This document shows positions 852-40,028 of a stretch of DNA of 47,023 nt, piece after piece. The stretch's first letter is position 1; each line of letters opens with the position of its first letter. The stretch lies in NCBI GenBank assembly GCA_902810735.1, contig CADDYX010000002.1, forward strand, positions 1 to 47,023. Reading direction: 5' to 3'. The position numbers and the translations under genes were made by a program. This stretch comes from Verrucomicrobiota bacterium (GTDB lineage Bacteria > Verrucomicrobiota > Verrucomicrobiia > Chthoniobacterales > UBA10450). The notes below the pieces were generated by a model. The model had not been told where the DNA came from. It saw only the letters and a program-made list of their open reading frames with translations, and ran no database searches.

Positions 852-864
852 CTCGCCTAATGAG

Positions 865-6371: not shown

Positions 6372-6372
6372 C

Positions 6373-9041: not shown

Positions 9042-9053
9042 TCGCGAAATTAG

Positions 9054-10061: not shown

Positions 10062-10073
10062 TCCGACTTCGTC

Positions 10074-10406: not shown

Positions 10407-10897
10407 TCGATGAGGTCCATCAACCGGAGTTTGGCGATCTTGAAGATTTCCGAAAGCGCCGTGTTCAGCTCGACCTCGGGAGGATTTTGCAGGCGCGCTG
10501 CAAAGGCGTCCAGCATCGTCTGCTTGTCGTTCATGCGTGCGCAGATGACGAACGGGAACCCAAACTTCTCGCGGTAACCGCGATTCGCGTGCCGAAATCT
10601 CGCCAACTCGTCATCTGTCAGCTCGCGGAGTCCAGCTGATCGCTGTTCGCGCTCCGATTCCGCCGTGAGGTCGAGCCGGTCCGCAAGATCGGGATGTGCA
10701 CCTACCAGCGACAGCTTTTCCCTGGTGCTCGCCGCATCGACGATCGCGCAGAGCTTGGCGTGGAGATCGGTGACCGACGCGAAGGGTCGATTCGCCCACG
10801 CACGCTCTGCAATCCACGGCGAATTCTCGAAAACAGGACCAACCACAGAGGTGAATTCGTTACGGCCGAGCGCATTGATCTCGGCGAGCTTTGGCAT
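10403..10897 (-). CDS. uraD: OHCU decarboxylase
   Basis: A 164-residue helical enzyme converting 2-oxo-4-hydroxy-4-carboxy-5-ureidoimidazoline to (S)-allantoin. The catalytic His68 sits in GAHPDL, followed by the family-typical glutamate-rich stretch and the [10 protein letters not shown] signature. It is the first gene of the eight-gene minus-strand purine operon and faces uricase across a 37-bp spacer, so urate oxidation and its two clean-up steps share one control region. Confidence 0.95.
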
Positions 10898-10934
10898 CGC
10901 GCTACCGCACTAAATCAATTAATTACGACGAGCA
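10898..10934. promoter_or_regulatory. Compact divergent control region uraD / uricase
   Basis: Only 37 bp separate the divergent start codons of uraD and uricase. The centre (10911-10925) is strikingly AT-rich in a GC-rich setting and contains the 8-bp palindrome AATTAATT (10917-10924). Such a short spacer implies overlapping promoters or transcription starts very close to the codons. I cannot assign -35/-10 boxes with confidence. Confidence 0.35.
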
Positions 10935-11780: not shown

Positions 11781-12576
11781 TGCGCTGCTGGAGGAATTGC
11801 TTGCCGCGCGGCGGTCTCGCACTCCTTGTGCATTAGTGACCGTCGCCGCGACGAAGGGATCTGCGCCGCGAGCAGCAGGCGCAAAAATGCTCGTTTATCC
11901 GTCCGGTCAAATCAGTGGGACAGTTGGCGGCGGAAAGTTCGAGGCGCTCGTTGTGGCCGACGCGCAGGAAAGCATTCGCTCCAAAATTCCGCTGCTCAAG
12001 ACGTATCCGCTTCGCGAAGGTGAACCCGATTCGTTTGGAGCGATCTGCGGCGGCGAGGCGACGGTCCTGATCGAGCCGCAGGCGCTTCGCGAGGCGGTTT
12101 TTTTGATCGGTGGCGGCCATTGTGCGCAGGCGATCGCAAGCTTGGCCGCACAGTGCGGTCTCTCAGTTACAGTCGTTGACGACCGCGGCGAATTGCTCAG
12201 CGATCTGCCGCCGAGTGTGACGATTGTTTCCGATGTCGCGCCACCAGCCTTTATTCGCAGCCGCAACTGGAAGCAGGATGAGGCGCTGGTGATCGTCAGT
12301 AGACAACACGACATCGACCGCGAAGCACTGGCAGCGGCCCTAAGCGTCCCTGCGGTCGGTTATCTCGGAATGATCGGCAGTCGCCGCAAAGTGCAGATGG
12401 TCTTCGACCGTCTGAAGGACACACCAGGCGCGGCGAATCTCGACCGCGTGTATGCCCCAATTGGGCTCGACATTGGCGCCGACGCTCCGGCCGAGATCGC
12501 GGTGAGTGTCATCGCCGAAATGCTCGCGGTCCTGCGCAAAACCAGCGGCGGCCATTTGCGCGGTCACCGCAGCTAG
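11773..12576 (+). CDS. xdhC: XdhC-type molybdenum-cofactor chaperone
   Basis: 267 residues from the ATG at 11773, which sits inside the uricase stop region (ATGACTGA). An in-frame upstream start at 11722 would add 17 basic residues out of the uricase frame and is less likely. XdhC proteins bind the molybdenum cofactor, promote its sulfuration and insert it into xanthine dehydrogenase. Motifs are the N-terminal TVAATKGSAPR and GTVGGG region, and the C-terminal Rossmann-like half with FLIGGGHCAQ, DDR and YLGMIGSRRK. It is co-transcribed with uricase rather than with xdh. The gene ends 1 bp from the convergent coiled-coil gene. Confidence 0.9.
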   Translation: MTDALLEELLAARRSRTPCALVTVAATKGSAPRAAGAKMLVYPSGQISGTVGGGKFEALVVADAQESIRSKIPLLKTYPLREGEPDSFGAICGGEATVLIEPQALREAVFLIGGGHCAQAIASLAAQCGLSVTVVDDRGELLSDLPPSVTIVSDVAPPAFIRSRNWKQDEALVIVSRQHDIDREALAAALSVPAVGYLGMIGSRRKVQMVFDRLKDTPGAANLDRVYAPIGLDIGADAPAEIAVSVIAEMLAVLRKTSGGHLRGHRS

Positions 12577-25565: not shown

Positions 25566-26225
25566 TCATTCGAAGAAAATGAAACCGTAGTCGCCGGTAT
25601 ATCCGCAGTGATGAAAAACCCAGAGCCACTCTTCCGGAGTAAAAAAGCATTCGCAGGTTAGCTGCCAGTCGAGCAGATTTACCTTCTCGGATTCGTTGCG
25701 GTACGAATCGGTTACGACGTACTTGCGTTTTCCGACGCGCTCGAATTCGCGCAACGCCGTCTCGAGCTGAGGCAGACGCAAATTGTGAACGGTATTGATC
25801 GACACGACAAGGTCAAAGCTGCCTGCAGCGTAGGGGAGTGCCACCGCGTCGGCGACGCGAAGATGCGGTTTTACTTCCGGCATTGCATTGGCGATCGCGT
25901 ATTCGGAAATGTCGATGCCGGACACTTGCAAACCAGGTAGCACCTTGAGGAGATCATGCACCAGAAAACCTTTCGCGCAGCCCACGTCGAGCACGCGGTC
26001 ACCTGGGCAAAGGCGATAGTGTTTCACGATCGATGCGGCGACAGGCAGCCACCGGCCATCATACGAATAGCCGCCGTAACCGTAACGCCGATCGCCATCG
26101 AAGTATTCAAATCCGAAGGCTTTTGCTTTGGTCGCACAGCTGGCCTTGTCCTCACCAGCGAACCGGCCGCGATAATCGCGCGTTGTCGCCCGATGCAGCG
26201 GCTGGATAAAATCAAGACATGTCAC
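25566..26225 (-). CDS. Class I SAM methyltransferase
   Basis: 219 residues with a GTG start (26225-26223). After a Tyr/Gly-rich N-terminal segment (YGYGGYSYDGRW), motif I is VLDVGCAKGFL, then GIDIS and SFDLVVSINTVHNL. The acceptor is not identifiable. The gene begins 16 bp after the E1-beta-like gene, in the same operon, so it probably modifies the same sugar or glycan. Confidence 0.78.
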   Translation of the reverse strand: MTCLDFIQPLHRATTRDYRGRFAGEDKASCATKAKAFGFEYFDGDRRYGYGGYSYDGRWLPVAASIVKHYRLCPGDRVLDVGCAKGFLVHDLLKVLPGLQVSGIDISEYAIANAMPEVKPHLRVADAVALPYAAGSFDLVVSINTVHNLRLPQLETALREFERVGKRKYVVTDSYRNESEKVNLLDWQLTCECFFTPEEWLWVFHHCGYTGDYGFIFFE

Positions 26226-26241
26226 AGCTATAGCATCTGAA

Positions 26242-27219
26242 CTACGAAACAGCTTGTTTCAGTGCGACGACGAGATCGTCGTCAGCTGGGTAGTATCTGG
26301 GCTCGAGGGCCATGCTCATCGGTGTGTGGCTGTCCGGCAAGGTAACGCGAATCGGTTTGGCTCTGAGTTGATCCCCGATTTCCTCGGAGACGCTGGTAAT
26401 AATTTCAGCGGCGGCGCCGAATGAATGCCACGCCGGGTCCGCGACGACGAGCCTTCGCGTTTTCGCAACTGATTGGCAGATCGAGTGGCGATCGAGCGGC
26501 GTGAGGGTGCGGGGATCTAGCACTTCGACATCGATTCCTTCTTTCTCAAGCAGGGTTGCGGCGCGAAGGGCGATTGGCACCATGCTGCCGATTGCTACAA
26601 GGGTTACGTCTCGACCGTGGCGGCGAACCACTGCCTGACCAAATCGTACGCGGTAGGGCTGCTCTGGCACGTGATCCGTCATAGAGTAGAGACCGCGACC
26701 CTCCACGAAAATAGTCGGCGTCTCACCCAGGATGCTTTCGAGAAGGAGTCCTTTGATGTCGTAAGCGGTCGACGGAACAGCAACGCGCAGGCCGGGCAGA
26801 TGAGCAAACCAGGCGTGCAGGCTCTTCGAGTGTTGCGGTCCCTGGCCCCAACCTTTGCCAACAATAGTTCGGATCGTTACCGGCATCGCCGATTTGCCGT
26901 TTGATTTGAAACGCCAGAGTGCCAGCCAGTTTGTAATCGCGTCGAGCGAGTAGATCATGAAGTCCAACCTTTGGTGGCACACCACGGGCCGCAGGCCGGT
27001 AAGCGCCGCCCCCATGGCAGTCGCAGTCATCAGGTTCTCGGCCACGGGAAAGTCTTGCACGCGCTCGGTCCCGTACTTGGTGACAAGACCGGTTGTGGTC
27101 CCGAAGATGCCGGACTGGGTATCGACCAGCTGACCCAAAACGACCACCTTGTCACACAGCGCCATCGCCTGGTCGGTCGCTTCGAGGATCGCATTGGCGT
27201 ATGAAAGCTGCCGAGCCAT
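26242..27219 (-). CDS. Thiamine-diphosphate enzyme, E1 beta-type subunit
   Basis: 325 residues of the 2-oxoacid dehydrogenase E1 beta / transketolase C-terminal type. The TPP-activating Glu61 lies in FPVAEN, and a transketolase-like C-terminal domain begins near residue 200 (VTLVAIGSMVPIALRAA). It should pair with the alpha-type subunit encoded 32 bp upstream. No E2 acyltransferase or E3 lipoamide dehydrogenase is present, so a stand-alone decarboxylase/ligase or C2-transferase role on a sugar is plausible. A classical pyruvate or acetoin dehydrogenase is less likely in this setting. Confidence 0.85.
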   Translation of the reverse strand: MARQLSYANAILEATDQAMALCDKVVVLGQLVDTQSGIFGTTTGLVTKYGTERVQDFPVAENLMTATAMGAALTGLRPVVCHQRLDFMIYSLDAITNWLALWRFKSNGKSAMPVTIRTIVGKGWGQGPQHSKSLHAWFAHLPGLRVAVPSTAYDIKGLLLESILGETPTIFVEGRGLYSMTDHVPEQPYRVRFGQAVVRRHGRDVTLVAIGSMVPIALRAATLLEKEGIDVEVLDPRTLTPLDRHSICQSVAKTRRLVVADPAWHSFGAAAEIITSVSEEIGDQLRAKPIRVTLPDSHTPMSMALEPRYYPADDDLVVALKQAVS

Positions 27220-27251: not shown

Positions 27252-28382
27252 CTAGTACGGCCCGAGCTTCGCGTCCGCCTGATAATGGTCAAAATTCCCG
27301 CCTGCGGCGGTACCGAGCAGCGCATCGGCCAACGGGCTAGCGTCTTCATACGTCATGCGGTGCCAATCGGTGTCAGTGGGAAAGGCGCTGTCCTTGGCAA
27401 ACTGGAAATTCGCGGCAATTTCACCGGCTATCTCCTGCTCGATCGCATCCTTCTCATCGTCGTTGAGCCAGTGCTGTAACCGCAGTTTGTTCTCAAACAG
27501 TGCGATCGGGCAGTTAGTCTTCCAGAATGCGATTTCATCGCCTGAACGATAAGCATTGGCGCTGTCGTCTTCCGGTCCTACGTGGCTGTTCCAGCGGTAG
27601 GTGTAGGCCTCGACTAGCACCGGACCGTCACCCTCACGCAAACGTGAAATTTCGGTGTGCAACGTGCGCCAGGCGAGCGCCACGTCATTGCCGAAGATTT
27701 GTGTCGCGCGCACTCCAAAAGGTGTTACGCGCTCGACAATGTTATCCTCCGCCTGACGTTTCAGCTGATCGGAGAAGGTAGCGTAGCGGTTGTTCTCAAT
27801 GACAAACAGGATCGGCAAACGTTTCTTTCCCGAGTAGTTCATTGCTTCCCAGAACGCGCCTTCATCCGTCGCGCCTTCGCCGAAGCCGGAGATGCTGATC
27901 TGCCGCGTCTTCGCATGCTGAAAGCCGAAAGCGGCGCCGACTGCGATACTGACCGCGCCAGCAAGGATGGCACCGCTATAAAAGTGCGATCCTGAGTGCG
28001 AGATGTCTTGCGATCCGGCCTTACCGCCGTTTGCACCGGTCTCCCGGCCGTAGATTTCGGCGAACAGCTCGCGCATTGGCGCCCCTTTGGCAAAGTAGTA
28101 CCCGTGCGACCGGTGATGGCTGAACATGAAATCGTCTGGCCGCACCAACGCTGAAAGCGCGGCGGGAACAGCTTCCTGGCCGATGCAAAAATGAATCGGG
28201 CAGCGCATCTCCTCTGCCGGGTGATACTCGCGATGCAGCGCCTCCTCTGTACGACGCAAGCGCAGCATCTGGCTATAAAGCGTCAGCGCGAGATCTTTGT
28301 CGATCCCGTGAAGGTCGACTGCCTCATACCGGCCGATTTGAGTGATCGTCCGATGACTCAGCCGAGAAGGCGCCGCGTTCAT
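27252..28382 (-). CDS. Thiamine-diphosphate enzyme, E1 alpha-type subunit
   Basis: 376 residues from the ATG at 28382, which overlaps the Nudix stop (ATGA). A longer in-frame start at 28502 lies inside the Nudix gene and is not needed. The E1 alpha fold is clear: HHRSHGYYFAKG (89-100), the TPP/Mg loop GEGATDEG (168-175) and the closing IENNRY with Asn197-Asn198. GEG instead of GDG is also found in branched-chain E1 alpha subunits, so it is not a defect. It forms a heterotetramer with the beta-type partner by analogy. Confidence 0.85.
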   Translation of the reverse strand: MNAAPSRLSHRTITQIGRYEAVDLHGIDKDLALTLYSQMLRLRRTEEALHREYHPAEEMRCPIHFCIGQEAVPAALSALVRPDDFMFSHHRSHGYYFAKGAPMRELFAEIYGRETGANGGKAGSQDISHSGSHFYSGAILAGAVSIAVGAAFGFQHAKTRQISISGFGEGATDEGAFWEAMNYSGKKRLPILFVIENNRYATFSDQLKRQAEDNIVERVTPFGVRATQIFGNDVALAWRTLHTEISRLREGDGPVLVEAYTYRWNSHVGPEDDSANAYRSGDEIAFWKTNCPIALFENKLRLQHWLNDDEKDAIEQEIAGEIAANFQFAKDSAFPTDTDWHRMTYEDASPLADALLGTAAGGNFDHYQADAKLGPY

Positions 28383-28819
28383 AGTTGCGATGCGGGCTGC
28401 GCAGCGATGCCAAGGTCCCACACCCGGCCGAGATAATCGCGGTGTTTCAGGCTTAACAACTCCGACCGCGGGACAAAGCGCAATGCCTGACCTTCGCGGC
28501 ATTCAATCCGCTGCTGGCCGTCATATGTTTCCCAAAAGAAGATCAAGTCTGTGTCGTTATTGTCGCTCCGCTGAGACGCATTCAGTCGAAGAAGCGGTTG
28601 CAGATTTGTGCAGCGATAGGCTGTCTCTTCATAAAACTCGCGAATCGCACCTGTCTTCGCGCTTTCACCCGGTTCAAGGTGGCCGCCTGGCAAGGCCCAG
28701 AAACCCGGATCGTTGATAGTTGGAGAATCGTCACGCAGCTGGAGCAAGGCAGCGCGGTCAGAGCGCAGCAGCAAAACTCCGACGACGCTTTTGGTGATGG
28801 TGACAACGGGCGCAGGCAC
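28379..28819 (-). CDS. Nudix hydrolase-family protein
   Basis: 146 residues from a GTG at 28819. The Nudix box spans residues 46-68: Gly46, Glu52, Arg60-Glu61 and Glu64-Glu65 fit the GX5EX7REUXEE pattern, but the usual Gly near the end is Ala67. Its position inside an NDP-sugar operon suggests hydrolysis of a nucleoside-diphosphate sugar, as for GDP-mannose mannosyl hydrolases, or clean-up of misactivated sugars. Coupled to the E1 alpha gene, and 15 bp from the preceding SDR. Confidence 0.85.
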   Translation of the reverse strand: MPAPVVTITKSVVGVLLLRSDRAALLQLRDDSPTINDPGFWALPGGHLEPGESAKTGAIREFYEETAYRCTNLQPLLRLNASQRSDNNDTDLIFFWETYDGQQRIECREGQALRFVPRSELLSLKHRDYLGRVWDLGIAAQPASQL

Positions 28820-28834
28820 GGGGAAGCCAATGAT

Positions 28835-29776
28835 TCAGTCCCGCTGTGGCTCTGTCAAACGTCGCAAAGATTCCGCAATGCCTTCCGCGAGAGGCGTGGG
28901 CGTGAAATCCGGAAATACGCGAATCCGTTCCGTCACATCGAAATGCCGATGAGTGACGGCTCCCGAAGCGGGAACGTGCTCGACTTCAACGTCGTCGCCC
29001 ACGAGGTCGGTAATGATGGAGGCGACGGCGCGGAATGGCACGGCCGCTCCGCTCGCGGCATTGATAGTACCAGCACATCGGTGCTTCAGGCAGAGGATGA
29101 GCAGATGCGCGACATCTTCGATGTACACGTGGTCGCGGGTCTCGTCTCCAGCGCCGAACAGCGTGATTTTGCGCTCGCGCATCGCCGCGCGCAGAAAACG
29201 GTTTGGGCCGTAGCTGTTGTGCGTGTCGCCTGCGCCGTAAATTGCGCAGGGGCGCACGATGCAGACGGGGATGCTTGTTCGTTCAGCTGTCGCCGCGATG
29301 ATCTGCTCGCGTGCCACGTGCATCAAACCGTAGAGATCACGCGGTTCGAGCGCGGACGATTCGCGGATTAACGTTTCACGCGAGCCGTAGACAGCATCCG
29401 AGCTGATGTAGATGAGGTGAGCGCACGCAGAACCTTGGAGCGCCTCGGCAAGATGCTGAGCCATCTGGAGATTCTTCATCAACGTCGAGACGTCCCGCCC
29501 TTTGTCCGGTGTCAACGCTGACGTGACGACCAACGCGTCGTCGGGGCGCAACTCCGCCTGAATCTGCTTTACGCTCGCTGGCCGAAGCAGATCGATTTCA
29601 CGCGAGCTGATTGCGCGATGCTCGATTTTCTCACGTGCAAGTGCCCGCGCGAGCGCACTCGCGATGAATCCGGACGACCCGAAAAGAACCACGCGCGCCG
29701 GTGGGGCGGCTATCGTTTGCAGGCGTTGGACCACGGGATCAGCAGCCGAGTTGGTGAGGCGCAAATCCCGACGCAA
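28835..29776 (-). CDS. NAD-dependent epimerase/dehydratase-like SDR, copy 1
   Basis: Up to 313 residues. A GTG at 29731 would give 298 and avoid the 38-bp overlap with the upstream gene, so the start is uncertain. Extended-SDR features are the FGSSGFIAS nucleotide loop, IYISSDAVYG and YGPNRFL. The catalytic YxxxK is Tyr149-x-x-x-His153, so lysine is missing. It is clearly paralogous to the SDR at 31004-31897, sharing NxYGPNRF and FGAGxExRDHV. It could reduce or epimerise an activated sugar by altered chemistry, or be a structural partner. Confidence 0.75.
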   Translation of the reverse strand: MRRDLRLTNSAADPVVQRLQTIAAPPARVVLFGSSGFIASALARALAREKIEHRAISSREIDLLRPASVKQIQAELRPDDALVVTSALTPDKGRDVSTLMKNLQMAQHLAEALQGSACAHLIYISSDAVYGSRETLIRESSALEPRDLYGLMHVAREQIIAATAERTSIPVCIVRPCAIYGAGDTHNSYGPNRFLRAAMRERKITLFGAGDETRDHVYIEDVAHLLILCLKHRCAGTINAASGAAVPFRAVASIITDLVGDDVEVEHVPASGAVTHRHFDVTERIRVFPDFTPTPLAEGIAESLRRLTEPQRD

Positions 29777-31007
29777 CGCACGCTGTGCGATCGAGCAGTC
29801 GAAACGGGTCGATTATGACGTCGCCGCGCAACGCGCGACGCAGGATTGCGGGGTCGACGCCGCGGAACTCGCGCCAGGGCGTCATGATGATCAAAGCGTC
29901 GGCGTTCGTGCACGCATCCAGTGCTGAAGCGGCGATCGATAGGTTCGGCACGCATCGCGAGAGTGATTTCACCTGCGGATCGTAGGCAATTTTCTCGAAC
30001 GCCCCGAGTGATTCGGCGAGCGCGACAGCCGGCGAATTTTTGACGGAGTGCGTGTCCTGTTTGTAAGCGAGGCCCCAAAACGCGAGTCGTGGTTTCGGAT
30101 TCTGCGAAAGCACATGTGCGTGCACCTGGCGCAGCGCCCAGTCGCGGCGGTAACGGCTGTTCGATTGCCACGCAGCGACGACAGCCGCATCCGTCCCGTG
30201 CTGCGCCGCGAGCGCCTGAACGGTGACGAGATCGCGTTCCAGATTTCCGCCCGCAATCCCGAGTCCGGGGCCGAGATACGCGTGTGGCCCGATCCGTTTG
30301 TCGAGCCGCAGCGCGGGCGCGATCTCTTCCCAATCAGCGCCGATGCGTTCGCACAGCTCGGCGAGCGTGTTGGTGGTAGCGACGGACGAGACGAGAAAAC
30401 AGTTGATTGCGATCTTTGCCAGTTCTGCGCTTTCGAAACGCATGACGAGCACCGGGCATCCAAAAGCTTCATGCCAGCGGTTGAGCTGCGGCGGAAGCGC
30501 GACGGCAGGATCCGCGGCGCCGACGATAAACCGCTCCGGTTCCATTGCCCGTTCCACTGCGCGCCCGAAGATCAGCGTCTCAACCTGATAATAGAACGCG
30601 GCGGCCGAGCGTGAACGCAACCGGCGGCACAGGTTGCGCATGTAACCGGGTGCGACCTGGCTCAGCACGACGGCGACGCTGCCGCCTGCGAGATGTGGTG
30701 CCGTCGCGTCGACGAGTGCACTCAGAGGACCGAGGTCGCTTTCGTTGCGCTCATTCGTGCGCACATCGAGCGAGTAGAAAACGAGGTCGCATGCGCTGAG
30801 CTCGGCTGCGGCAGAGCTGTATCGAATCCGGCCGCGATGTTGCGCAAACAATTCCGCGAAACCGGGCTCCTCGATTGGAAATTCGCCGGCGCTACAGCGC
30901 GCCGTGAGCGCTGGATCGGCATCATACGCCAGCACGTCGAAGCCGCGTGCCGCCGTGGCGAGACTGTAGTTTAGTCCGAGGTGCGAAAGGCCGATGAAAC
31001 CGATCAT
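29739..31007 (-). CDS. UDP-glucose/GDP-mannose dehydrogenase-like protein lacking catalytic Cys
   Basis: 422 residues with the full three-domain layout: N-terminal Rossmann (IGFIGLSHLG), a central helix with the conserved Lys in ELAKIAIN, and a C-terminal FWGLAYKQDTHSVKNSP. In true nucleotide-sugar dehydrogenases a Cys in a GGSCFPKD-type motif forms the thiohemiacetal. Here the region reads GIAGGNLERD with Asn255 at that place. Four-electron oxidation to a uronic acid is therefore unlikely; a two-electron oxidation or another NAD role is possible. It sits between two paralogous SDRs, coupled to one by ATGA. Confidence 0.8.
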   Translation of the reverse strand: MIGFIGLSHLGLNYSLATAARGFDVLAYDADPALTARCSAGEFPIEEPGFAELFAQHRGRIRYSSAAAELSACDLVFYSLDVRTNERNESDLGPLSALVDATAPHLAGGSVAVVLSQVAPGYMRNLCRRLRSRSAAAFYYQVETLIFGRAVERAMEPERFIVGAADPAVALPPQLNRWHEAFGCPVLVMRFESAELAKIAINCFLVSSVATTNTLAELCERIGADWEEIAPALRLDKRIGPHAYLGPGLGIAGGNLERDLVTVQALAAQHGTDAAVVAAWQSNSRYRRDWALRQVHAHVLSQNPKPRLAFWGLAYKQDTHSVKNSPAVALAESLGAFEKIAYDPQVKSLSRCVPNLSIAASALDACTNADALIIMTPWREFRGVDPAILRRALRGDVIIDPFRLLDRTACVASGFAPHQLGC

Positions 31008-31897
31008 TGGTCGGTCACCTGCCGGTGATCAGCGCAAATCCGCGCCAGACCTTCCTGCCATCCGGTAAACGCGAACCCGGGGAATGCGGTCGCCGCTGCG
31101 CTTGGAGCGAAGGCGCGCAGTCCATTGTGCGGCATTGGGCCAACCCGCGGAGAACCCTTGATCGCGACGCGTTGCGGAAATTGATCCGCAATGTATTCCG
31201 CCAAAGTGCGAAACGAGACGGCCTCACCCGTAACGGCATTCACGATACCGGCGCTGCGATGCAGCACGATGCGCGCTACCAATTCTCCCACATCATCTAC
31301 CCACACGTGGTCGCGCCGTTCCTCGCCTGCGCCGAACAGGACAATCTCTTTGCCTTCCGCCGCCAGCCGCCGGAAACGATTTGGACCGTAGCCGTTGTGC
31401 GGATCGTCAATGCCGTAAGTGAGTGTCGGCCGGACAATCGCTAGCGGTCCGGAAAATTCGCTCCGCAGCATCACTTCGCGCGAGAGATGCATAACACCGT
31501 GCAGACTGCCAGGCTCGGCGCAGGATTCTTCCGACAGCGGTTCGGCCGAATCCTTGTAAACCGCGTCCGAACTAACATAAATCACGTGGTCAACCGGCTG
31601 GCGTGCTAACGCGGCGCATACCGCTTCGGCCATCCGAATGTTTTGCGTCAGCATGGCTGGCGTCTTGCACGGTGCACGCGCGGAAACGAAGACGAGCGCG
31701 TCGCCTGGCCGTAGCAGCGCGGTAAGACGATCCGCGGCGTCGACCGCGAGCAGATCGCAATCTTGCCGAGTCACTCGCGTGACTGTGGCCCCGGCAGCTT
31801 CAAGACGCCGCGCGGCCGCTCCGCCGATGAATCCTCCCGCACCGAGGATAACAACGCGAGCCGGCTTCCGCGGCGAGACGTGCAGATTCTCGAGCAT
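31004..31897 (-). CDS. NAD-dependent epimerase/dehydratase-like SDR, copy 2
   Basis: 297 residues, extended SDR: VVILGAGGFIGGAA at 15-28, IYVSSDAVY at 106-114, then NGYGPNRF and a conserved FGAGEERRDHV. The YxxxK catalytic pair is replaced by His133-x-x-x-His137, so both Tyr and Lys are changed. It is paralogous to the SDR at 28835-29776 and separated from it only by the dehydrogenase-like gene. Its stop overlaps that gene's ATG, and it begins 2 bp after the Gfo/Idh/MocA gene. The reaction is unknown. Confidence 0.75.
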   Translation of the reverse strand: MLENLHVSPRKPARVVILGAGGFIGGAAARRLEAAGATVTRVTRQDCDLLAVDAADRLTALLRPGDALVFVSARAPCKTPAMLTQNIRMAEAVCAALARQPVDHVIYVSSDAVYKDSAEPLSEESCAEPGSLHGVMHLSREVMLRSEFSGPLAIVRPTLTYGIDDPHNGYGPNRFRRLAAEGKEIVLFGAGEERRDHVWVDDVGELVARIVLHRSAGIVNAVTGEAVSFRTLAEYIADQFPQRVAIKGSPRVGPMPHNGLRAFAPSAAATAFPGFAFTGWQEGLARICADHRQVTDQ

Positions 31898-31899
31898 CG

Positions 31900-32814
31900 C
31901 TAATTGCAGGCGATCAACTCGGCAAGTTCGCTGATTTTTTCAGCGATCCAGAGGTCGTTCTCGAGATTCGTGCCGCCTGTTTTGCAAAGCTCGAGGAAAT
32001 GCTGGTACTCCAGCTGCCATGTCGGATCCGGCTGCTCGAGCGTTTCCACCGTTTCACTGGGGCGTCCGCTCGGCAGCACGCGCGTGCGGACAGTCAGCGT
32101 GCTCGGCCCCCATTTGCAGAGGCAGTCAATGTGAGCACTGCCGCGTTCGCCAAAAACGTCGAGGCGGAACGTGTTGCGCCACGAGAGCAGCGTCGCTTCC
32201 ATCTCCAGCACGCGTTTTCCGCGGTAGCCGAAGAGCACGTGGTCGGCGGCTTTGTTTTCAAAACGATCTGCGCTCCAGACCTGCCCTTTCTCGGGGTGCG
32301 GCCCGAAAAGAAAATGCGCCATATCGAGCATGTGCGAACCGAGGTCGGAGAAAACCCCGAGGCCTTTGTCCCGCCATGGCGAGTTGCGGACGTCACGTGC
32401 GGTGCCGTTACCGTAGAAGAATTTCGCGAAATACGTTTGCCCGAGTGTCTCGGCTTCGAGAATGCGTTTAAGCGCGGCAATGTGAGGCTCAAAACGGTGA
32501 TTGTAAGCGGTGTAGCACGCGGCGCCGTTCGACTGCGACAGCTCGATCAACTCGCGAATTTCACCTTCACGCCCGAGCAGCGGTTTCTCGACCAATGCAT
32601 GTTTGCCGTTTGCGAGTAGATAACGCAGGATCGCGCCTTTTTCCTGATCGGGAACACAGACGCACGCAGCGTCGTAGCACGACAGCGGCACCTCGTCGAT
32701 GTGTCGGAAATCGACACCGGCCGCGACGGGATCGACGACGGCTACGACCTGTTCGGCGGCGATCGCGCGGCGTTTCCGGCCTTGCACGCCGAGGCCGACG
32801 ATCACCACTCTCAT
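31900..32814 (-). CDS. Gfo/Idh/MocA-family oxidoreductase
   Basis: 304 residues. An N-terminal Rossmann fold (VVIVGLGVQG) is followed by the family's LVEKPLLG motif with the catalytic Lys and YNHRF. The C-terminal beta-sheet domain carries DLGSHMLDMAHFLFG, whose Asp/His are typical active-site residues. Members oxidise or reduce sugar hydroxyl/keto groups with NAD(P). The ATG overlaps the stop of the nucleotidyltransferase-kinase gene (ATGA, 32811-32814), linking it to activated-sugar formation. Confidence 0.85.
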   Translation of the reverse strand: MRVVIVGLGVQGRKRRAIAAEQVVAVVDPVAAGVDFRHIDEVPLSCYDAACVCVPDQEKGAILRYLLANGKHALVEKPLLGREGEIRELIELSQSNGAACYTAYNHRFEPHIAALKRILEAETLGQTYFAKFFYGNGTARDVRNSPWRDKGLGVFSDLGSHMLDMAHFLFGPHPEKGQVWSADRFENKAADHVLFGYRGKRVLEMEATLLSWRNTFRLDVFGERGSAHIDCLCKWGPSTLTVRTRVLPSGRPSETVETLEQPDPTWQLEYQHFLELCKTGGTNLENDLWIAEKISELAELIACN

Positions 32815-34361
32815 TCGAAGCGCGATCGCTTTTCGAGAGCGTCCAGCTTCGCCAACACCTGCTCCGGCGCCACGGGATTATTGCCGTCGTGCTCGCACGC
32901 CACAGCCGCGGCCAGCGCCCCGAGAATCGAGCCGATGACATTCGACTTCGTCGCAACGATCGACAGCGTCGCGTAAGAGAGAAGCGCGTCGCCTGCGCCG
33001 ACCGGATCGACCACCTTATCAGCGAAGCTGTCGACGGTGAAAAACGACCGCACTTCCGGATCGGGCGCGCGGTAGGTGATAATCCCGCGTTCCCCCAGCT
33101 TCAGAATCAATAGCTTGCAACCGGCTCTCTTGTACAGGTCGAGAGCCAACGGGCGAATAGTGGAATCCTGATCGCCGAGCGCGAATCGAGCTTCGCGTTC
33201 ATTCGGTGTGATCAAATCGAAATTCTGAAACTCCAGGATATTGCCCCAACGGTTCGCAACCTGGCTGTCCGCTACGCGAATGGCGCCTCGCGGTGCCGCC
33301 GCGGCGAGTTGCGGGATTGTGACCTTGTTGAAGATGCCATGGCGAAAGTCGCTGAACACCACCGCGTCGACGGCGTGCTTCGCCAGCTCCGCTTTTAACG
33401 CATCGACGGTGTGCTCGGAGATTGGCCGATTATCCAGCTTATCCACCTTCAGCATCCGATAGCCGTTGGTGATAAAGGCGTTCTTCTGCGTCGTCGGCCG
33501 AGTCGGGTCGATGGCTGCGTGGCACTCGATTCCGTTCGCCTCGAGATCGGCCAAAACAAAGTCTTTCAGCGCGTCGTCTCCGAGAACGGTCGAGAACACC
33601 ACCTCGGCGCCCGCCCGTCGCAAGTGTTTCGCGACCACGGCCGCACCGCCGGGAAAATTCACCTCCCGCTCGTGCTTGACGCTAAAGGTCGGAGTCTTCG
33701 CCGTGCCGCCAATCAGCGTGCAGTAAGTGTAGGAGTCGACGATCGTGTCGCCGATCACATGGACTTTGACATCTCTGAGCTTCGCCAGTGCGCTCTTTAG
33801 GTCTTCAAAGTTCAGGCCTTCGGAGCGGAGCAGGGCGAGCAGCTTTTCCGTCGCGAGGTTCGGCGGCGTCGTCTCGATGATTGCGGACGAGGAAAGGACA
33901 AGATCGCCCGGGGTGAAGAGAAGCTCGCCGCCGTACGACTCGATCGCTGCCATCTCTTCCCGCGTCCGCGGGTGGATGCCTTCGGCGGAGTACTCGTAAC
34001 CTTTCGCGAAGAAATCGGGCTGAATGAACTTCAGATTCTCGATCGGCGTCGCGTTTTCATCGATGATCACGTAGTCGACGCACTCAAGTGCGGCGAGATT
34101 CATCGCCCGCAGGTCCTGCGGCACAAACGGCCGGAAGTTCGCCTTGTTGATGTGCGCATCCGAAGTGAGGCTCGCCACCAGCAAATCGGCGTGGTCCTTC
34201 GCGTACATCAGGTGTCGGATATGCCCGGGATGAACCAGGTCGAATGTGCCGTGACACATGATCACGGTCTGCGCTCGCGGACGCGGGCCGATCGCATCGC
34301 GCAGTTGCTCGCGCGTCTTGATCTTGCGACGGAAATCGTTCTGCTGCGCGGGAATGTTCAT
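32811..34361 (-). CDS. Nucleotidyltransferase-PfkB kinase fusion (HldE-like, reversed order)
   Basis: 516 residues from the ATG at 34361, which overlaps the epimerase stop (ATGA); a longer start at 34445 would run into that gene. Residues about 30-165 are a cytidylyltransferase-fold domain: CHGTFDLVHPGH with His44 and His47, and SSSAII near 157-162. Residues about 185-510 are a PfkB kinase ending in DPVGAGD with catalytic Asp458. E. coli HldE has kinase first and nucleotidyltransferase second, so the order is reversed. Together they would phosphorylate and activate a heptose phosphate with ATP or CTP. The exact sugar and nucleotide are inferred. Confidence 0.85.
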   Translation of the reverse strand: MNIPAQQNDFRRKIKTREQLRDAIGPRPRAQTVIMCHGTFDLVHPGHIRHLMYAKDHADLLVASLTSDAHINKANFRPFVPQDLRAMNLAALECVDYVIIDENATPIENLKFIQPDFFAKGYEYSAEGIHPRTREEMAAIESYGGELLFTPGDLVLSSSAIIETTPPNLATEKLLALLRSEGLNFEDLKSALAKLRDVKVHVIGDTIVDSYTYCTLIGGTAKTPTFSVKHEREVNFPGGAAVVAKHLRRAGAEVVFSTVLGDDALKDFVLADLEANGIECHAAIDPTRPTTQKNAFITNGYRMLKVDKLDNRPISEHTVDALKAELAKHAVDAVVFSDFRHGIFNKVTIPQLAAAAPRGAIRVADSQVANRWGNILEFQNFDLITPNEREARFALGDQDSTIRPLALDLYKRAGCKLLILKLGERGIITYRAPDPEVRSFFTVDSFADKVVDPVGAGDALLSYATLSIVATKSNVIGSILGALAAAVACEHDGNNPVAPEQVLAKLDALEKRSRFE

Positions 34362-35365
34362 GCCGTTTTGGCGTCGAGGAAAGCGAACCAGTTCTTCGTC
34401 GCGGCGGCAATCGAATCGGCGTCCCAGACCGGAGCCTGCCGCCAATAGTCGATATTCTTCAGCATCTGCGCGACACCATCTTCGAACGACACCAGCTGTT
34501 TCCAGCCAAGCTCGCGCTGGATTTTTGTGATATCTGCCCAGGTGCAGTCGGGTTCGCCGGGCCGCTTCGGCAGCCGAATCACTTCACCGCCGCCGAGCAG
34601 TTCGACGAGACGGTTTACCGTCTGCGGATTACCAGCACCGAGATTGAAAATCTCGTTCACGCGGTCCGTGGTCGCCGCGAGGAAAAACGCTCGTGCGACA
34701 TCCGTGACGAAGAGGAAATCGCGCCGCTGAGTGCCGTCACCCACGACAGTGAACGGCTTGCCGGCAATCTTTTGCGCGAGAAACACACCAAAGACCGCCC
34801 CGTACGCGCCGGAAGTTTTCGAACGCGTGCCGTAGGCATTGAAAATCCGAAGCGAATTCACCGGCAGCCGGTAAACTTTGCCCCAATGCAAGACCGCTTC
34901 TTCGCCCATGTATTTGCTTAGTGCGTACGGATACTCCGGCTGGATCGGCGCGTTCTCGGCCGTCGGCACATCGGCCATGCCGTAGCAGGAAGACGAGGCG
35001 GCATAGACGAGCTTGCGCACCCTGGCGTGGCGAGCGCACTCCAGCACCTTCACCGTGCCCATCACGTTCGTGGAGAGATAATCGACCGGCTTGTCGATCG
35101 ACGGGACGATGTCGCCGATTCCCGCGAAGTGAAAAACGTATTCCGCGCCCGAAAACAGCGTGTCTTCCGGAGCAAGGTCGCGAATATCGCGCGTCTCGAC
35201 GACCAAATTTCGTTCGCCCTTGCGATGAGCGAGGTTCTCCAGCCGCCCGCCGACGAGATTATCGATCACATGAACGCGAAAGCCTTCGTCGAGCAGCCGA
35301 TCCACCATGTGGCTGCCGATAAAACCGGCGCCCCCCGTGACGACGGCGATTCTGCGCGATGTCAT
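34358..35365 (-). CDS. NDP-sugar 4-epimerase-like SDR
   Basis: 335 residues, a canonical extended SDR: VTGGAGFIGSH near the N-terminus, a Ser-rich YAASSSCYG region and the intact catalytic YALSK. A C-terminal RPGEPDCTWADITK segment is typical of UDP-glucose/GlcNAc 4-epimerases (WbpP, GalE-like). It is coupled to the nucleotidyltransferase-kinase and 13 bp after another SDR. It would epimerise or dehydrate the activated sugar of the locus. Confidence 0.85.
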   Translation of the reverse strand: MTSRRIAVVTGGAGFIGSHMVDRLLDEGFRVHVIDNLVGGRLENLAHRKGERNLVVETRDIRDLAPEDTLFSGAEYVFHFAGIGDIVPSIDKPVDYLSTNVMGTVKVLECARHARVRKLVYAASSSCYGMADVPTAENAPIQPEYPYALSKYMGEEAVLHWGKVYRLPVNSLRIFNAYGTRSKTSGAYGAVFGVFLAQKIAGKPFTVVGDGTQRRDFLFVTDVARAFFLAATTDRVNEIFNLGAGNPQTVNRLVELLGGGEVIRLPKRPGEPDCTWADITKIQRELGWKQLVSFEDGVAQMLKNIDYWRQAPVWDADSIAAATKNWFAFLDAKTA

Positions 35366-35378
35366 TTTTTTGCAGGCG

Positions 35379-36380
35379 CTACGCCAGGTGAAGCGCCTTG
35401 ACTGTCTTTACATTGACGAACTCGTCGTCCTTCAGCGTGTCACCTTTGAATTTACCGTCGCGGAATGCGTGGCAGAGATCGCGCACCGCGTCCTCGATTC
35501 TTCTTTTCGGTGTCCACCCAAGCCGCTCCGCGATTTTCCGAGACGTGATACGGTAGGATCTGAGGTCATCGCTGCTCGTGCGCTCGATCCGAATTGGTTT
35601 CTTCTCCGGAAATTCCTGCTCCACGATCTGTTTTGCAATCTCGGCCAGCTCGCTCACAGTCTGATTTTGGTAGCCGGCGTTGAAGATTTCGCCGGCGATT
35701 TTCTGCGCTGGCATCGAGAGCAACTCGACATACAGCTCGCACACGTCGTCGATGTGAATATTTGGTCGCTGCTGGTCGCCACCGAAAACAGTGATCAGGC
35801 TGCGGTGATACGCGTGATTTGTCAGGATGTTTACCGTCAGATCGAAGCGCATGCGCGGCGAGTAGCCGCACACCGTCGCCGGGCGGATCGTGACGCAGAT
35901 GAATTCAGGTGACTGATGCCGGAACAGAATTGGTTCACAGAGACCTTTGTATTTGTTGTAGTCGGTCAACGGCACCAGCGGATGCTCCTCCGTCACTTCC
36001 GGCGAATCGCTCACGCCGTAGACCGAGCTGCTCGAAACGTAAACAAACCGCTTCACGCCCGCGGCTTTGCTTGCGATCACGAGCGGCTCGAAGCATTCGT
36101 AATTGATCGTGCGACTGAGCGACGGATCGAGATCGAAACTCGGATCGTTCGAGATACAGGCCATGTGAATGACATGATCGCAGCCCTTCACCGCGTCGGC
36201 GTATTTGGCGGTGTCGCGAATGTCGCCCTCGACGATTTTGAGGTTCGGGTGGGAAGGCAATCCCGCCGATCCGAAGAGCATCAGGTCGTAAACAACGACG
36301 GCATACCCGGCGTCGAGCAGCTTCGGCACGAGGACACAGCCCTTGTATCCGGCGCCTCCGGTGACCAAAACAGTTTCCAT
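35379..36380 (-). CDS. NAD-dependent epimerase/dehydratase SDR
   Basis: 333 residues from the ATG at 36380; an in-frame TTG at 36395 would add five and cannot be excluded. Features are VTGGAGYKGCVL as the nucleotide loop, VYVSSSSVYG and the intact catalytic YNKYK. RPATVCGYSPRMR is a pattern seen in epimerases of lipopolysaccharide loci. First gene of the 15-gene minus-strand arm that runs to 22079. It is divergent from the GT-C-like gene. Confidence 0.82.
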   Translation of the reverse strand: METVLVTGGAGYKGCVLVPKLLDAGYAVVVYDLMLFGSAGLPSHPNLKIVEGDIRDTAKYADAVKGCDHVIHMACISNDPSFDLDPSLSRTINYECFEPLVIASKAAGVKRFVYVSSSSVYGVSDSPEVTEEHPLVPLTDYNKYKGLCEPILFRHQSPEFICVTIRPATVCGYSPRMRFDLTVNILTNHAYHRSLITVFGGDQQRPNIHIDDVCELYVELLSMPAQKIAGEIFNAGYQNQTVSELAEIAKQIVEQEFPEKKPIRIERTSSDDLRSYRITSRKIAERLGWTPKRRIEDAVRDLCHAFRDGKFKGDTLKDDEFVNVKTVKALHLA

Positions 36381-36591
36381 AAACGCGGGAATCAATCACC
36401 AAGTCCGTGGCTATCCAGTCATTTTTCGCCTTCCCGGAGCCGCAATTTAGCCGCAGAGCACGCGCATTGAGAGAAATCCGCGAGAGAACGAGCAGCCGTA
36501 TCCGGCAGCGTCTGCACGCCGTCGCTAACGACACAGACACGAAATCCGTTGCGCCCTGCATCGCCGTGCGGCATCGGAGGGGAGCAACTGC
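36381..36591. promoter_or_regulatory. Divergent control region of the two glycan arms
   Basis: This 211-bp spacer must hold promoters for both the minus-strand arm (15 genes) and the plus-strand arm (6 genes). I cannot call a -35/-10 pair on either strand with confidence. The plus-strand side ends in a strong ribosome-binding site (separate entry). Confidence 0.4.
36576..36584 (+). promoter_or_regulatory. Strong ribosome-binding site of the GT-C-like gene
   Basis: GGAGGGGAG at 36576-36584 is a near-perfect Shine-Dalgarno match 7 bp before the ATG at 36592. It supports that start, and it stands out because most starts in this window lack a clear match and rely on overlap coupling. Confidence 0.7.
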
Positions 36592-38127
36592 ATGCGCTTA
36601 AACTCGGCACGCACGAACCGCAGCATCGCATTCAGCGAGCCATGCACGTGGGTGCTGTTCTGGTTCGCCATTTTCGTCGTCAAAGTACTGCTTCTGGCGG
36701 TCGATCCCCTTCCGAAGTTCATGATGGGCGATTCAGGTACTTACCTCTATACCGCCCTCACCGGTTTGATTCCGGCGGATCGTTCATTTCTTTACGGCTT
36801 GGTCATTCGGTGGTCGTCGCTCTGGACCGGCAGCCTGACGTCGCTGCTCGTCCTTCAACTCTGTCTCAGCGCGGTCACCGCAATTGTCTTTACCGCGATC
36901 ATCCGCTTCATTTTCGGCCTTTCGCTTCGGTTCTCTTATCTGCTCGGACTTCTCTGCGCATTGGATCCGCTGCAGTTGCTATATGAGCGCTATGTGATGA
37001 CGGAGGCGATCAGCCTCTGCCTGTATGCTGTCATGCTCCATCGAGCATTTTTGTACATCAGAGACCGCCGCCTAATGGACCTCGTGCTAGTTCAGGTCGT
37101 CTCTGTAATCCTGATTGCATTCAGAATTAGCTACCTGATGCTCGTCGAGATCGATACCGTTTTACTTCCGTTGATAGGCTTTTCGGGCCTTGCTTGGCAT
37201 TGCTTCCGAAGCCGCGCGAGCCGTGCTCTCCGTTGGCGACCCATCCAGGCGTGTGGCGGCCATCTTGCTGTGAGCATCGCGGTCGCGCTTCTGCTTCACA
37301 CGAACTACAAGCACGTTAATGGCTGGCTCTCCCACCGTCAGCCGTCCTATTTGTACGCGACCGGAGTTACTCTGCTGGCTTTTTGCTCGCCAGCTCTCGA
37401 GCCAGAGGATTCCACGGATCCCGCGTTGCGTCAGTTGATTCAAGATGGCGATCGCCTTGGCCTGAAGAATTTCCACACGCGCAACGCGCAACGCTTTAGC
37501 CCGAATGGCTTGGTTGCGAGATTGAAGGCCGTCGACGGTGCGCGGTTGGACATCGACGAACTCGCCCGCAGGACGGCGATTCACGCATTAAAGCGCAATC
37601 CGGTGGGCGTGGCGAAGATCGCCTGGTCGGTCTACGCAGATTACTGGAACGTGGCGACAATGAAGCGTTCCGTCGAAGCGGATTTCTCATTTCGACGTCC
37701 GCCAAAGGGCGAACTCGTGTCGCTGCTTGCGTCGCGGTTTCACCTCGCATACGACGAAGCTCTGCAGCACGAGAGCGTGCTGCAACGGTATTATGAGTGG
37801 GCGTGGCCATACTATTTCGTCCTTTTACTCGCACCTTTTCCGGCGGGTATTGCTCTTTTCCTGTCCCGCGGTCGGAAGTATGCCGTGCTGGTGTTTACCC
37901 ACATTTCGGTAATCTTGCCGGTTGCGATGCTATTCGGCGGCGATAGCGTGCGGCTCCTTCAGCCGATCTCGCTTGCAACTTTACTCGTTGCGGCGCTGCT
38001 CCTCGCAGCCACGTTGGAATGGCGCAACGCGCGGAAGCAAGCACGCGTCGAACGCGGCGGCGCAGGTGGTGACGCTCTCGACGATGGCGTTCACGCTTCT
38101 CAGCAGGGACGCATTCTCACATCGTGA
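36592..38127 (+). CDS. GT-C-like multispanning membrane glycosyltransferase
   Basis: 511 residues with about ten hydrophobic segments. A TM at 20-37 is followed by the periplasmic-loop MMGDSGTYLY (Asp47-Ser48), matching the first-loop acidic motif of GT39/ArnT-like GT-C enzymes. YERYVMTEAISL resembles their conserved Glu-containing segment. Residues about 265-375 are soluble. It would transfer a sugar from a lipid carrier on the outer face of the inner membrane. Its stop overlaps the GTG of the isomerase gene (GTGA). Exact family membership is moderately certain. Confidence 0.7.
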   Translation: MRLNSARTNRSIAFSEPCTWVLFWFAIFVVKVLLLAVDPLPKFMMGDSGTYLYTALTGLIPADRSFLYGLVIRWSSLWTGSLTSLLVLQLCLSAVTAIVFTAIIRFIFGLSLRFSYLLGLLCALDPLQLLYERYVMTEAISLCLYAVMLHRAFLYIRDRRLMDLVLVQVVSVILIAFRISYLMLVEIDTVLLPLIGFSGLAWHCFRSRASRALRWRPIQACGGHLAVSIAVALLLHTNYKHVNGWLSHRQPSYLYATGVTLLAFCSPALEPEDSTDPALRQLIQDGDRLGLKNFHTRNAQRFSPNGLVARLKAVDGARLDIDELARRTAIHALKRNPVGVAKIAWSVYADYWNVATMKRSVEADFSFRRPPKGELVSLLASRFHLAYDEALQHESVLQRYYEWAWPYYFVLLLAPFPAGIALFLSRGRKYAVLVFTHISVILPVAMLFGGDSVRLLQPISLATLLVAALLLAATLEWRNARKQARVERGGAGGDALDDGVHASQQGRILTS

Positions 38128-38720
38128 CTTACTCGGACACACATCTGCGGGAGGCTGCAGAAATCATTGCGAAGCTAGACTCCTCGGCATGCGAAAGAGC
38201 GGTCGAGCTGCTCGTTTCGGTGAGGGAAAATGGCGGACGCGTTTTTGTCCTCGGCGTCGGCGGAAGCGCTGCGAACGCATCGCATGCGGTCAACGATCTT
38301 CGCAAGATCGCCGGCCTCGAGTGTTACGCGCCAACGGACAACGTTTCAGAGCTGACGGCGAGAACAAACGACGACGGCTGGAAGACTGTATTCGTCGAGT
38401 GGCTGAAAGGGAGTCGCCTGAACCACCGCGATGCGCTTTTCGTTCTCTCCGTAGGCGGCGGGGACCTGAAGAGAAACGTGAGTCCCAACCTCGTAGCAGC
38501 TTTAGATTTAGCAAAAGCAATCGGCGCGAAGGTGCTAGGCATTGTCGGGCGTGATGGCGGTTACACCGCCAAAGTAGCCGATGTGGCGGTAATCATTCCG
38601 ACGGTCAACGCGGATAACGTCACACCGCACGCCGAAGCATTTCAGGCTGTCGTGTGGCATCTTTTTGTAAGTCATCCTAAGCTCAAAGTTTCTGAGACGA
38701 AGTGGGAGAGCACGAAATAA
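38124..38720 (+). CDS. SIS-domain phosphosugar isomerase, GmhA-like
   Basis: 198 residues, GTG start overlapping the preceding stop. The SIS fold shows VLGVGGSAANASHAVNDL at 42-59, equivalent to GmhA's GNGGSAADAQHFAAEL, with His54 kept. GmhA turns sedoheptulose 7-phosphate into a heptose 7-phosphate. The C-terminal metal pair HxxxxH of GmhA appears as Gln174...His179 here, so the active site has diverged. The following GmhB-like and transaldolase genes support a seven-carbon substrate; other ketose phosphates are possible. Confidence 0.8.
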   Translation: MTYSDTHLREAAEIIAKLDSSACERAVELLVSVRENGGRVFVLGVGGSAANASHAVNDLRKIAGLECYAPTDNVSELTARTNDDGWKTVFVEWLKGSRLNHRDALFVLSVGGGDLKRNVSPNLVAALDLAKAIGAKVLGIVGRDGGYTAKVADVAVIIPTVNADNVTPHAEAFQAVVWHLFVSHPKLKVSETKWESTK

Positions 38721-39292
38721 GGCGACTACGTAACCGCGGCGTATTTCTGGATCGTGACGGAGTGTTGAACAAAGCTGTCGTGCGAGACGGTCGGCCTTAT
38801 CCGCCACAATCGGTGCACGAACTCGAGATCTACGGGGACGTCATGGCGGGATGTGAGCAGCTTGAGAAAGCCGGATTTTTGCTTGTTGTCGTGACGAACC
38901 AGCCGGACGTCGGGCGAGGGAAGCAGAGCCGCGCGGTCGTGGAAGCGATCAATGCAGCGATCGCGCGGGCGATCCCGGCGCTCCGTCGATTTGAGGTTTG
39001 CTTTCACGCCGGGAGCGAGCATGGCGAGCCGTGCGATTGTCGGAAGCCGAAGCCCGGCATGGTCCGCCGTGCAGCCGACGCGCTCGACATCGATCTCTCG
39101 GCGAGCTTCATGATTGGAGATCGGTGGCAGGATGTCGACTGTGCGCGTGCTGCCGGCTGCCGTGCGATATTCATCGATCACGGATATGCGGAGCGGCTGC
39201 GCGGGCTGCCGGACCTCACGGTCAAGACGTTCGCCGCGGCGGTCGATGCGGTGCTGAACAGCGCCTTGCCGCCGGCAGCCGTTGCGGGCTAG
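38702..39292 (+). CDS. gmhB: HAD-IIIA phosphatase, GmhB-like
   Basis: 196 residues from GTG 38702, overlapping the isomerase by 19 bp. FLDRDGVLN with Asp17 and Asp19 is the HAD nucleophile loop, VVTNQPD motif II, and CxHxxxxxxxxCDCRKPKPGM (about 100-120) the zinc-binding loop typical of GmhB/HisB phosphatases. A C-terminal GDRWQD supplies motif IV. GmhB removes the 7-phosphate of heptose 1,7-bisphosphate. The context of an isomerase and a kinase-nucleotidyltransferase fits this step. Confidence 0.85.
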   Translation: MGEHEIRRLRNRGVFLDRDGVLNKAVVRDGRPYPPQSVHELEIYGDVMAGCEQLEKAGFLLVVVTNQPDVGRGKQSRAVVEAINAAIARAIPALRRFEVCFHAGSEHGEPCDCRKPKPGMVRRAADALDIDLSASFMIGDRWQDVDCARAAGCRAIFIDHGYAERLRGLPDLTVKTFAAAVDAVLNSALPPAAVAG

Positions 39293-39302
39293 AGTTGCAC
39301 CC

Positions 39303-40028
39303 GTGAGCGCCGCCCAGCTCGAACAACTGCCAATCAAGATCTTTGCCGACGGGGCTGATCTCGAAGGGATTATCGATCTCTGTCGCCAGCCTTTCATCCA
39401 AGGCCTGACAACCAATCCTACGCTAATGCGCAAGGTAGGAATCAGCGACTACGAAACGTTTGCCCGCTCAGTTTTGGCAAGCGTCACCGACAAGCCGATC
39501 TCGTTTGAAGTGTTTTCTGACGAGTTCTCCGAAATGCGACGGCAGGCGTTGAAGATTCGAAATTGGCAGGACAACGTCTATGTGAAGATTCCGATCACGA
39601 ATACGCGGGGTGAGTCCGCGCTTCCGTTGATTCGCGACCTAGCGGCCGAGGGAGTTAAAGTAAACGTCACCGCAATTTTGACGCGCCGCCAGGTAAGCGG
39701 CGTTGCAGCTGCGCTATCCGCACACGTGCCGGCTGTCGTATCGGTGTTTGCGGGGCGGATTGCCGATAGCGGTGTCGATCCACTTCCAGTGATGAAGGAA
39801 TCCCGGCAACTGCTGGAGCACCTGCCGCAAGCAGAACTGCTTTGGGCGAGCGTTCGCGAGGTTCTCAACATCTTTCAAGCCGTCGACTGCGGCTGCCATA
39901 TCGTAACTGTACCGCATGATATTCTGGCAAAGGCACTGAAGCTCGCAGGTATGGACCTGGAGGAACTTTCGCTGAGTACGGTAAAGATGTTCTATCAGGA
40001 TGCGGTAGCATCAGATTTTCGACTGTGA
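39303..40028 (+). CDS. Transaldolase (TalC/fructose-6-phosphate aldolase-like)
   Basis: 241 residues from GTG 39303. An in-frame TTG at 39282 lies inside the phosphatase gene and is less likely. Motifs are KIFADGADL near the start, GLTTNPTLM and NVYVKIPIT with the Schiff-base Lys95. Length fits the small transaldolase class. Transaldolase makes sedoheptulose 7-phosphate from fructose 6-phosphate and erythrose 4-phosphate, the substrate of GmhA. Its place right after the isomerase and phosphatase suggests dedicated precursor supply. Confidence 0.85.
   Translation: MSAAQLEQLPIKIFADGADLEGIIDLCRQPFIQGLTTNPTLMRKVGISDYETFARSVLASVTDKPISFEVFSDEFSEMRRQALKIRNWQDNVYVKIPITNTRGESALPLIRDLAAEGVKVNVTAILTRRQVSGVAAALSAHVPAVVSVFAGRIADSGVDPLPVMKESRQLLEHLPQAELLWASVREVLNIFQAVDCGCHIVTVPHDILAKALKLAGMDLEELSLSTVKMFYQDAVASDFRL

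Follow-up and report, generated by a model that had tools for sequence, protein, structure and literature searches.

A UDP-glucose dehydrogenase homologue without the catalytic cysteine in a conserved operon of higher-sugar type

The locus and its genes

The window analysed here is a stretch of 47,023 nucleotides of contig CADDYX010000002.1 from a Verrucomicrobiota bacterium. It contains a gene for a Cys-less nucleotide-sugar dehydrogenase of the UDP-glucose dehydrogenase (UGDH) family, which begins with ATG and encodes 422 amino acids (Table 1). An earlier note on this DNA had placed the gene correctly at 29739-31007 and missed that it lies on the minus strand (31007..29739). On that strand the genes follow one another in the order SDR, SDR, HldE-like fusion, Gfo/Idh, SDR and dehydrogenase, while the GmhA-like, GmhB-like and transaldolase genes stand divergently at 38124-40028. 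The dehydrogenase start codon shares an ATGA with the upstream SDR gene, and four bases are likewise common to the HldE-like and Gfo/Idh genes, in keeping with co-translation of the operon.

Table 1. Features of the window; gene counts refer to 80 homologous loci, many of them on contigs cut by their ends (hUGDH, human UGDH).
Feature	Position	Strand	Evidence or occurrence
Cys-less UGDH-family nucleotide-sugar dehydrogenase	29739..31007	-	Pfam/NCBIfam, PDB alignments, AlphaFold2, Foldseek, sequence
AAT codon of Asn255, in place of the catalytic Cys	30243..30245	-	codon checked; Asn in 81/81 group-A sequences
Gln117 codon, for Thr of STVP (Thr131 of hUGDH)	30657..30659	-	Gln in Cys-less, Thr/Ser in Cys-bearing sequences
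Asp259 codon (hUGDH Asp280)	30231..30233	-	alignment; role from PMC3184952
Lys198-xxx-Asn202 (hUGDH Lys220/Asn224), retained	30402..30416	-	invariant in all sequences compared
Glu143 codon (hUGDH Glu161), retained	30579..30581	-	pooled comparison
Extended SDR, RmlD/Fcl-like ("SDR31")	31004..31897	-	HxxxH for YxxxK; 62/80
Gfo/Idh/MocA oxidoreductase, LmbZ counterpart	31900..32814	-	78/80
HldE-like fusion, reversed order (nucleotidyltransferase, then PfkB kinase)	32811..34445	-	74/80
SDR, GalE/UDP-sugar epimerase type	34358..35365	-	70/80
SDR, NAD-dependent epimerase/dehydratase family	35379..36395	-	66/80
GmhA-like SIS isomerase, LmbN counterpart	38124..38720	+	42/80
GmhB-like HAD phosphatase, LmbK counterpart	38702..39292	+	45/80
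Short transaldolase/F6P-aldolase family, LmbR counterpart	39282..40028	+	52/80
Second RmlD-like SDR (YxxxH)	28835..29776	-	23/80; start uncertain, TTG start overlaps the dehydrogenase
TPP-dependent E1 alpha/beta pair, accessory	27252-28502 + 26242-27219	-	19/80 (alpha), 17/80 (beta)
Methyltransferase	25566..26225	-	59/80

The HldE-like fusion is 54-85% identical across the loci. The gene set keeps company with the Cys-less enzyme: it was found in none of 20 neighbourhoods of canonical UGDH genes in related genomes, where a single generic SDR was the only match. Separate HldA-, HldC- and GmhA-like genes are present elsewhere in the genome (contigs C38, C178 and C40), so the operon is probably not devoted to heptose of the LPS core. 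The TPP-dependent E1 pair does not belong to the core operon; it resembles enzymes of the AviB1/AviB2 type (PMC4753412), which install two-carbon branches on keto-sugars.

Two further observations were made in the window. The two RmlD-like SDRs that flank the dehydrogenase have odd but conserved active sites: the catalytic Ser (SSDAVY) is kept, and in place of YxxxK the protein of 31004-31897 has HGxMH in most of 60 homologues and that of 28835-29776 has YGxMH in most of 21. By eye, positions 330-12576 hold a likely purine/ureide degradation set (deaminases and xanthine dehydrogenase-like, allantoinase-like and OHCU decarboxylase-like proteins) that adjoins the polysaccharide region.

The active site and its conservation

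The encoded protein is a three-domain member of the UDP-glucose/GDP-mannose dehydrogenase superfamily. All three Pfam UDPG_MGDP_dh models (N-terminal, central and C-terminal) score above their cut-offs, and alignments to solved UGDHs in the PDB span almost its full length. The AlphaFold2 model has a mean pLDDT of 93.2, and all 50 PDB matches listed by Foldseek for it are UGDHs (TM 0.82-0.90). The three-domain layout described in the earlier note is thus borne out by both domain models and fold, and the C-terminal block quoted there reads YKQDTHSVKNSP. The protein passes the NCBIfam nucleotide-sugar dehydrogenase subfamily model TIGR03026 (196.5 bits, cut-off 189.8) and falls far under every equivalog cut-off. 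The same organism encodes a canonical UGDH (GGSCFPKD) in a separate gene on another contig, with 29% identity to the Cys-less protein.

Around the active site the alignment runs without a gap, 3vtf reading GLGFGGSCFPKD and the present protein GLGIAGGNLERD, so that the Cys column falls on Asn255. The GGSC Cys that is the hallmark of the four-electron NDP-sugar 6-dehydrogenases (UGDH/GMD) is therefore absent, as the earlier note had held, and the homologues agree. A scan of genome contigs with the peptide patterns YQVETL and FxCPVLVM recovered 80 loci with 43-78% identity; in the resulting group A (81 sequences) Asn255 is present throughout, an invariance that was not selected for, since the patterns omitted the Cys-site motif. 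Gln117, Glu143, Lys198, Asn202 and Asp259 likewise occur in every group-A sequence that has residues at those positions. With Asn kept in all 81 homologues, a pseudogene or sequencing error as the source of Asn255 is ruled out, and the exchange is not a sign of degeneration.

A second Cys-less group, here group B, has Thr at the Cys site (GGTLARD) and was found in relatives and in an actinobacterial genome; phage-like contigs supplied further Cys-less sequences with Thr or His. Two other cysteines were considered as replacement nucleophiles and rejected. Cys203, the candidate that the earlier note itself had named as able to overturn its reading, lacks a Cys counterpart at 203 or 204 in 19 of the 81 homologues. 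Cys184 is conserved within group A and absent from group B, and its place, where a predicted strand begins, is 14 residues ahead of Lys198.

In a pooled comparison of 118 Cys-less and 53 Cys-bearing sequences, in which a few genes, each covered by two loci, enter twice, the exchange at the Cys site goes together with a second one. Residue 117 is Gln in all 118 Cys-less sequences, apart from one truncated row without the N-terminal columns, whereas among the Cys-bearing sequences it is Thr in 52 and Ser in one. Every sequence has Glu143, Lys198, Asn202 and Arg238, and every one has Asp259 save five phage-type proteins with Glu. Nearly all Cys-less sequences also have His9 for the usual Tyr of GYVG, a change seen in five Cys-bearing sequences as well. 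When the motif columns were left out of the alignment, the tree still placed the Cys-bearing sequences together on one side of a branch supported at 100/99; this tree is unrooted, and it thus allows but does not prove a single origin and does not show the direction of the Cys change.

The Cys-less gene and its type of operon are spread over about ten phyla, and titles and lineages cover Verrucomicrobiota, Pseudomonadota, Acidobacteriota, Planctomycetota, Nitrospirota, Thermodesulfobacteriota, Myxococcota, Omnitrophota, Lindowiibacteriota and Chlamydiota, plus an actinobacterial genome; many of the source genomes are metagenome-assembled, so single lineage assignments may be wrong. Named strains with the operon belong to Azospirillum, Tardiphaga, Methylobacterium, Polynucleobacter, Thalassobaculum and Sulfidibacter. 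No plasmid-borne copy was found at E 1e-40, and a search of the open-access literature returned no paper on a Cys-less UGDH. Across these phyla the Rossmann glycines are invariant, along with the active-site Lys, Asn, Asp, Glu and Arg. One hallmark catalytic residue is gone, which might suggest an inactive scaffold or regulatory paralogue, but a dead enzyme would need none of those that are kept, and such a role is scarcely credible.

The Cys-less UGDH-like proteins of a series of viral contigs (L178-L190) read TNDTLGRE or GGHLMRD at the site. No C-terminal UDP-binding domain was aligned in them, and they are possibly a two-domain phage version; many of their genes adjoin a classical SDR gene.

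An octose parallel and the proposed reaction

Roles for the retained and exchanged residues can be read from human UGDH, in which a water bound and activated by Asp280 is predicted to act as base in the first oxidation, Cys276 forms the thiohemiacetal, Lys220 stabilises charge, Arg260 of the partner subunit reaches the sugar and Thr131 has been proposed to track the active water (PMC3184952). In the alignment these residues correspond, in the order Asp280, Cys276, Lys220, Arg260 and Thr131, to Asp259, Asn255, Lys198, Arg238 and Gln117. Judged from these positions, the residues for alcohol oxidation and sugar binding are kept and those for thioester chemistry are replaced in step. Mutation of Glu161 in the human enzyme traps the thiohemiacetal, which links this residue to the second half-reaction, and the retention of its counterpart Glu143 is the one awkward point.

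It might accordingly be asked whether an acid is still made, by direct oxidation of an aldehyde hydrate. The human C276A variant can oxidise the aldehyde intermediate, and Glu143 is kept; yet from UDP-glucose the same variant does not complete the reaction (PMC3184952), and the Thr131 equivalent is replaced in every Cys-less member, which makes acid formation very unlikely. An enzyme that stops after the first half-reaction, turning the primary alcohol of a hexose (at C6) or of a heptose (at its last carbon) into an aldehyde released as a dialdose, would be consistent with the retention of all first-oxidation residues and the loss of the Cys of the second oxidation. The operon, however, is of higher-sugar type, and UGDH geometry would present the secondary C6 of a heptose, so that this reading is decidedly improbable.

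A closer precedent comes from lincosamide biosynthesis, whose parts include the transaldolase LmbR, isomerase LmbN, phosphatase LmbK, kinase LmbP, guanylyltransferase LmbO, epimerase LmbM, dehydrogenase LmbL, oxidoreductase LmbZ and aminotransferase LmbS (PMC4351081). Group-B loci combine transaldolase, GmhA and GmhB genes with a GHMP kinase and an NTP transferase, with no aminotransferase noted. When the group-B transaldolase was searched against 396 genomes of a single family (that of genome G729, taken as Streptomycetaceae), one match was obtained, in genome G830. Its locus (L222:8669-18953, contig C12) carries, by BLAST and Pfam, nine genes in the published gene-table order K-L-M-N-Z-P-O-S-R, and a possible glycosyltransferase gene was also seen in this Streptomycetaceae-type genome. 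The remaining lincosamide genes were not seen at the locus, which is therefore a lincosamide-type sugar cluster and not proven to be lmb itself. Its LmbL-like protein (P0004) contains SQL, PENLRLG, AELVKHGTN and AGATLHRD and is thus Cys-less, with Thr at the site; it sits on a long branch of the unrooted tree. Only the transaldolase search led to this gene: with a group-B protein as query against the same 396 genomes, the best 20 loci all held canonical Cys enzymes.

We take the absence of Cys together with Gln for the Thr of STVP as the mark of the LmbL type. The Verrucomicrobiota protein bears this mark in common with the LmbL-like P0004, the protein used here to represent the type, and the corresponding gene set R, N, K, P/O (or HldE), M and Z lies beside it in the window and in most of the 80 loci. 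On these grounds it is probably, though far from certainly, an LmbL-type NAD enzyme that oxidises a secondary alcohol of an NDP-heptose or NDP-octose, most plausibly at C6, to a ketone that feeds the SDR and Gfo/Idh enzymes or a dehydration in situ, with no uronate formed. The substrate, the carbon position, the nucleotide and the product are what we infer from the operon and the LmbL-like precedent; the sequences do not distinguish heptose from octose. The earlier note had held that the enzyme might carry out just one two-electron step or some other reaction with NAD, and had named NDP-heptoses, beside NDP-hexoses, as substrates to assay. The conservation pattern, the exchange of the Thr131 equivalent for Gln, the retained first-oxidation residues, the operon and the LmbL-like precedent all favour that view, with an NDP-heptose among the likely substrates. 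The family-wide invariance, the Thr-type second group, the octose parallel and a likely secondary-alcohol target, where Cys has no use, go beyond what that note had proposed.

In the proposed pathway the transaldolase would build a ketose phosphate, which the GmhA-like isomerase would turn into an aldose; the kinase domain of the HldE-like protein would phosphorylate C1, the GmhB-like phosphatase would take off the terminal phosphate, and the nucleotidyltransferase domain would attach the nucleotide to the higher-carbon sugar. Bound like UDP-glucose, a heptose or octose would turn its C6, which carries a secondary alcohol, towards NAD. The Lys-xxx-Asn pair also occurs in the beta-hydroxyacid dehydrogenases, where secondary alcohols are oxidised without Cys. 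Here the Lys198/Asn202 pair and a water bound by Asp259 would help a hydride to pass from C6 to NAD+, yielding a 6-ketone; the thiohemiacetal/thioester route to an acid is closed to a ketone, so that a Cys would be useless. Asn255 and Gln117 would probably hold the extra carbon or carbons past C6. The 6-ketone would then leave for the next enzymes (SDR, Gfo/Idh), to be reduced or epimerised, or else might be used in place, with beta-elimination of a distal hydroxyl and return of the hydride.

This last fate defines a distinct possibility, a redox-neutral dehydratase in which C6 is oxidised transiently, the C8 hydroxyl eliminated and the hydride delivered to C8, to give an 8-deoxy-6-keto octose. 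According to a 2020 study of the lincosamide pathway, a 6,8-dehydration is reportedly among the steps from GDP-octose to GDP-lincosamide; in-situ dehydration is for this reason the main rival of ketone release. Four enzymes, LmbL together with LmbM, CcbZ and CcbS, convert GDP-octose to GDP-D-alpha-D-lincosamide (PMC12945683). Dehydration would account for a site with no need of Cys, and the Streptomycetaceae counterpart of LmbL is Cys-less. It would, however, require an octose, a chain length that cannot be read from the sequences; no elimination-specific acid/base pair was identified, and an SDR of the operon, acting after the enzyme, could equally reduce a released ketone. We regard dehydration as unlikely on balance, if worth keeping in mind.

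If the preferred reading, oxidation of a secondary alcohol to a ketone, is right, the names that family models give them ("nucleotide sugar dehydrogenase", "UDP-glucose 6-dehydrogenase") point to uronic acid products that these proteins probably do not form, and the absence of Cys together with Gln117 would serve as a two-residue rule to tell ketone-forming from acid-forming enzymes. The conserved higher-sugar operon is also brought to light, and its product can be sought directly in the named strains. It is conceivable, although we would not expect it, that the Asn-type enzyme marks an undescribed, widespread pathway for a keto-heptose or keto-octose of surface polysaccharides, and that, where a locus has the E1 pair, a two-carbon unit is added to the ketone to give a branched nine- or ten-carbon sugar.

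Comparison with known systems

Bradyrhizose, for which an 11-gene cluster has been reported in photosynthetic bradyrhizobia (PMC4743980), was considered as the product of the operon and is not supported. Among the 272 genomes searched the Cys-less dehydrogenase occurs in 11 and reaction-centre genes in 27, and only 2 of the 11 have both.

The ADP-heptose pathway (GmhA-GmhB-HldE-HldD) shares with the window operon homologues of its first three enzymes; the operon differs in the reversed domains of its HldE and in the added transaldolase, Cys-less dehydrogenase, Gfo/Idh and SDR genes. Canonical UGDH (EC 1.1.1.22; human UGDH, BceC, UgdG) has the same three-domain fold (TM 0.82-0.90) and the same KxxxN, Asp, Glu and Arg active-site residues, whereas the present protein is without the catalytic Cys, has Gln for Thr and in its group usually His for the Tyr of GYVG, and belongs to an operon of higher-sugar type.

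The lincosamide set differs from the window operon in its GHMP kinase and separate NTP transferase, where the window has the HldE fusion, and in the aminotransferase LmbS, for which no counterpart was recognised in the operon. The LmbL-like protein itself has Thr rather than Asn at the Cys site and is 28% identical to the window's enzyme. Yet LmbL/CcbL and the present protein belong to the same UGDH family and share a gene set of transaldolase, SIS isomerase, HAD phosphatase, kinase, nucleotidyltransferase, SDR and Gfo/Idh, and the LmbL-like protein and the present one are both Cys-less, with the same SQ and PENLRLG motifs.
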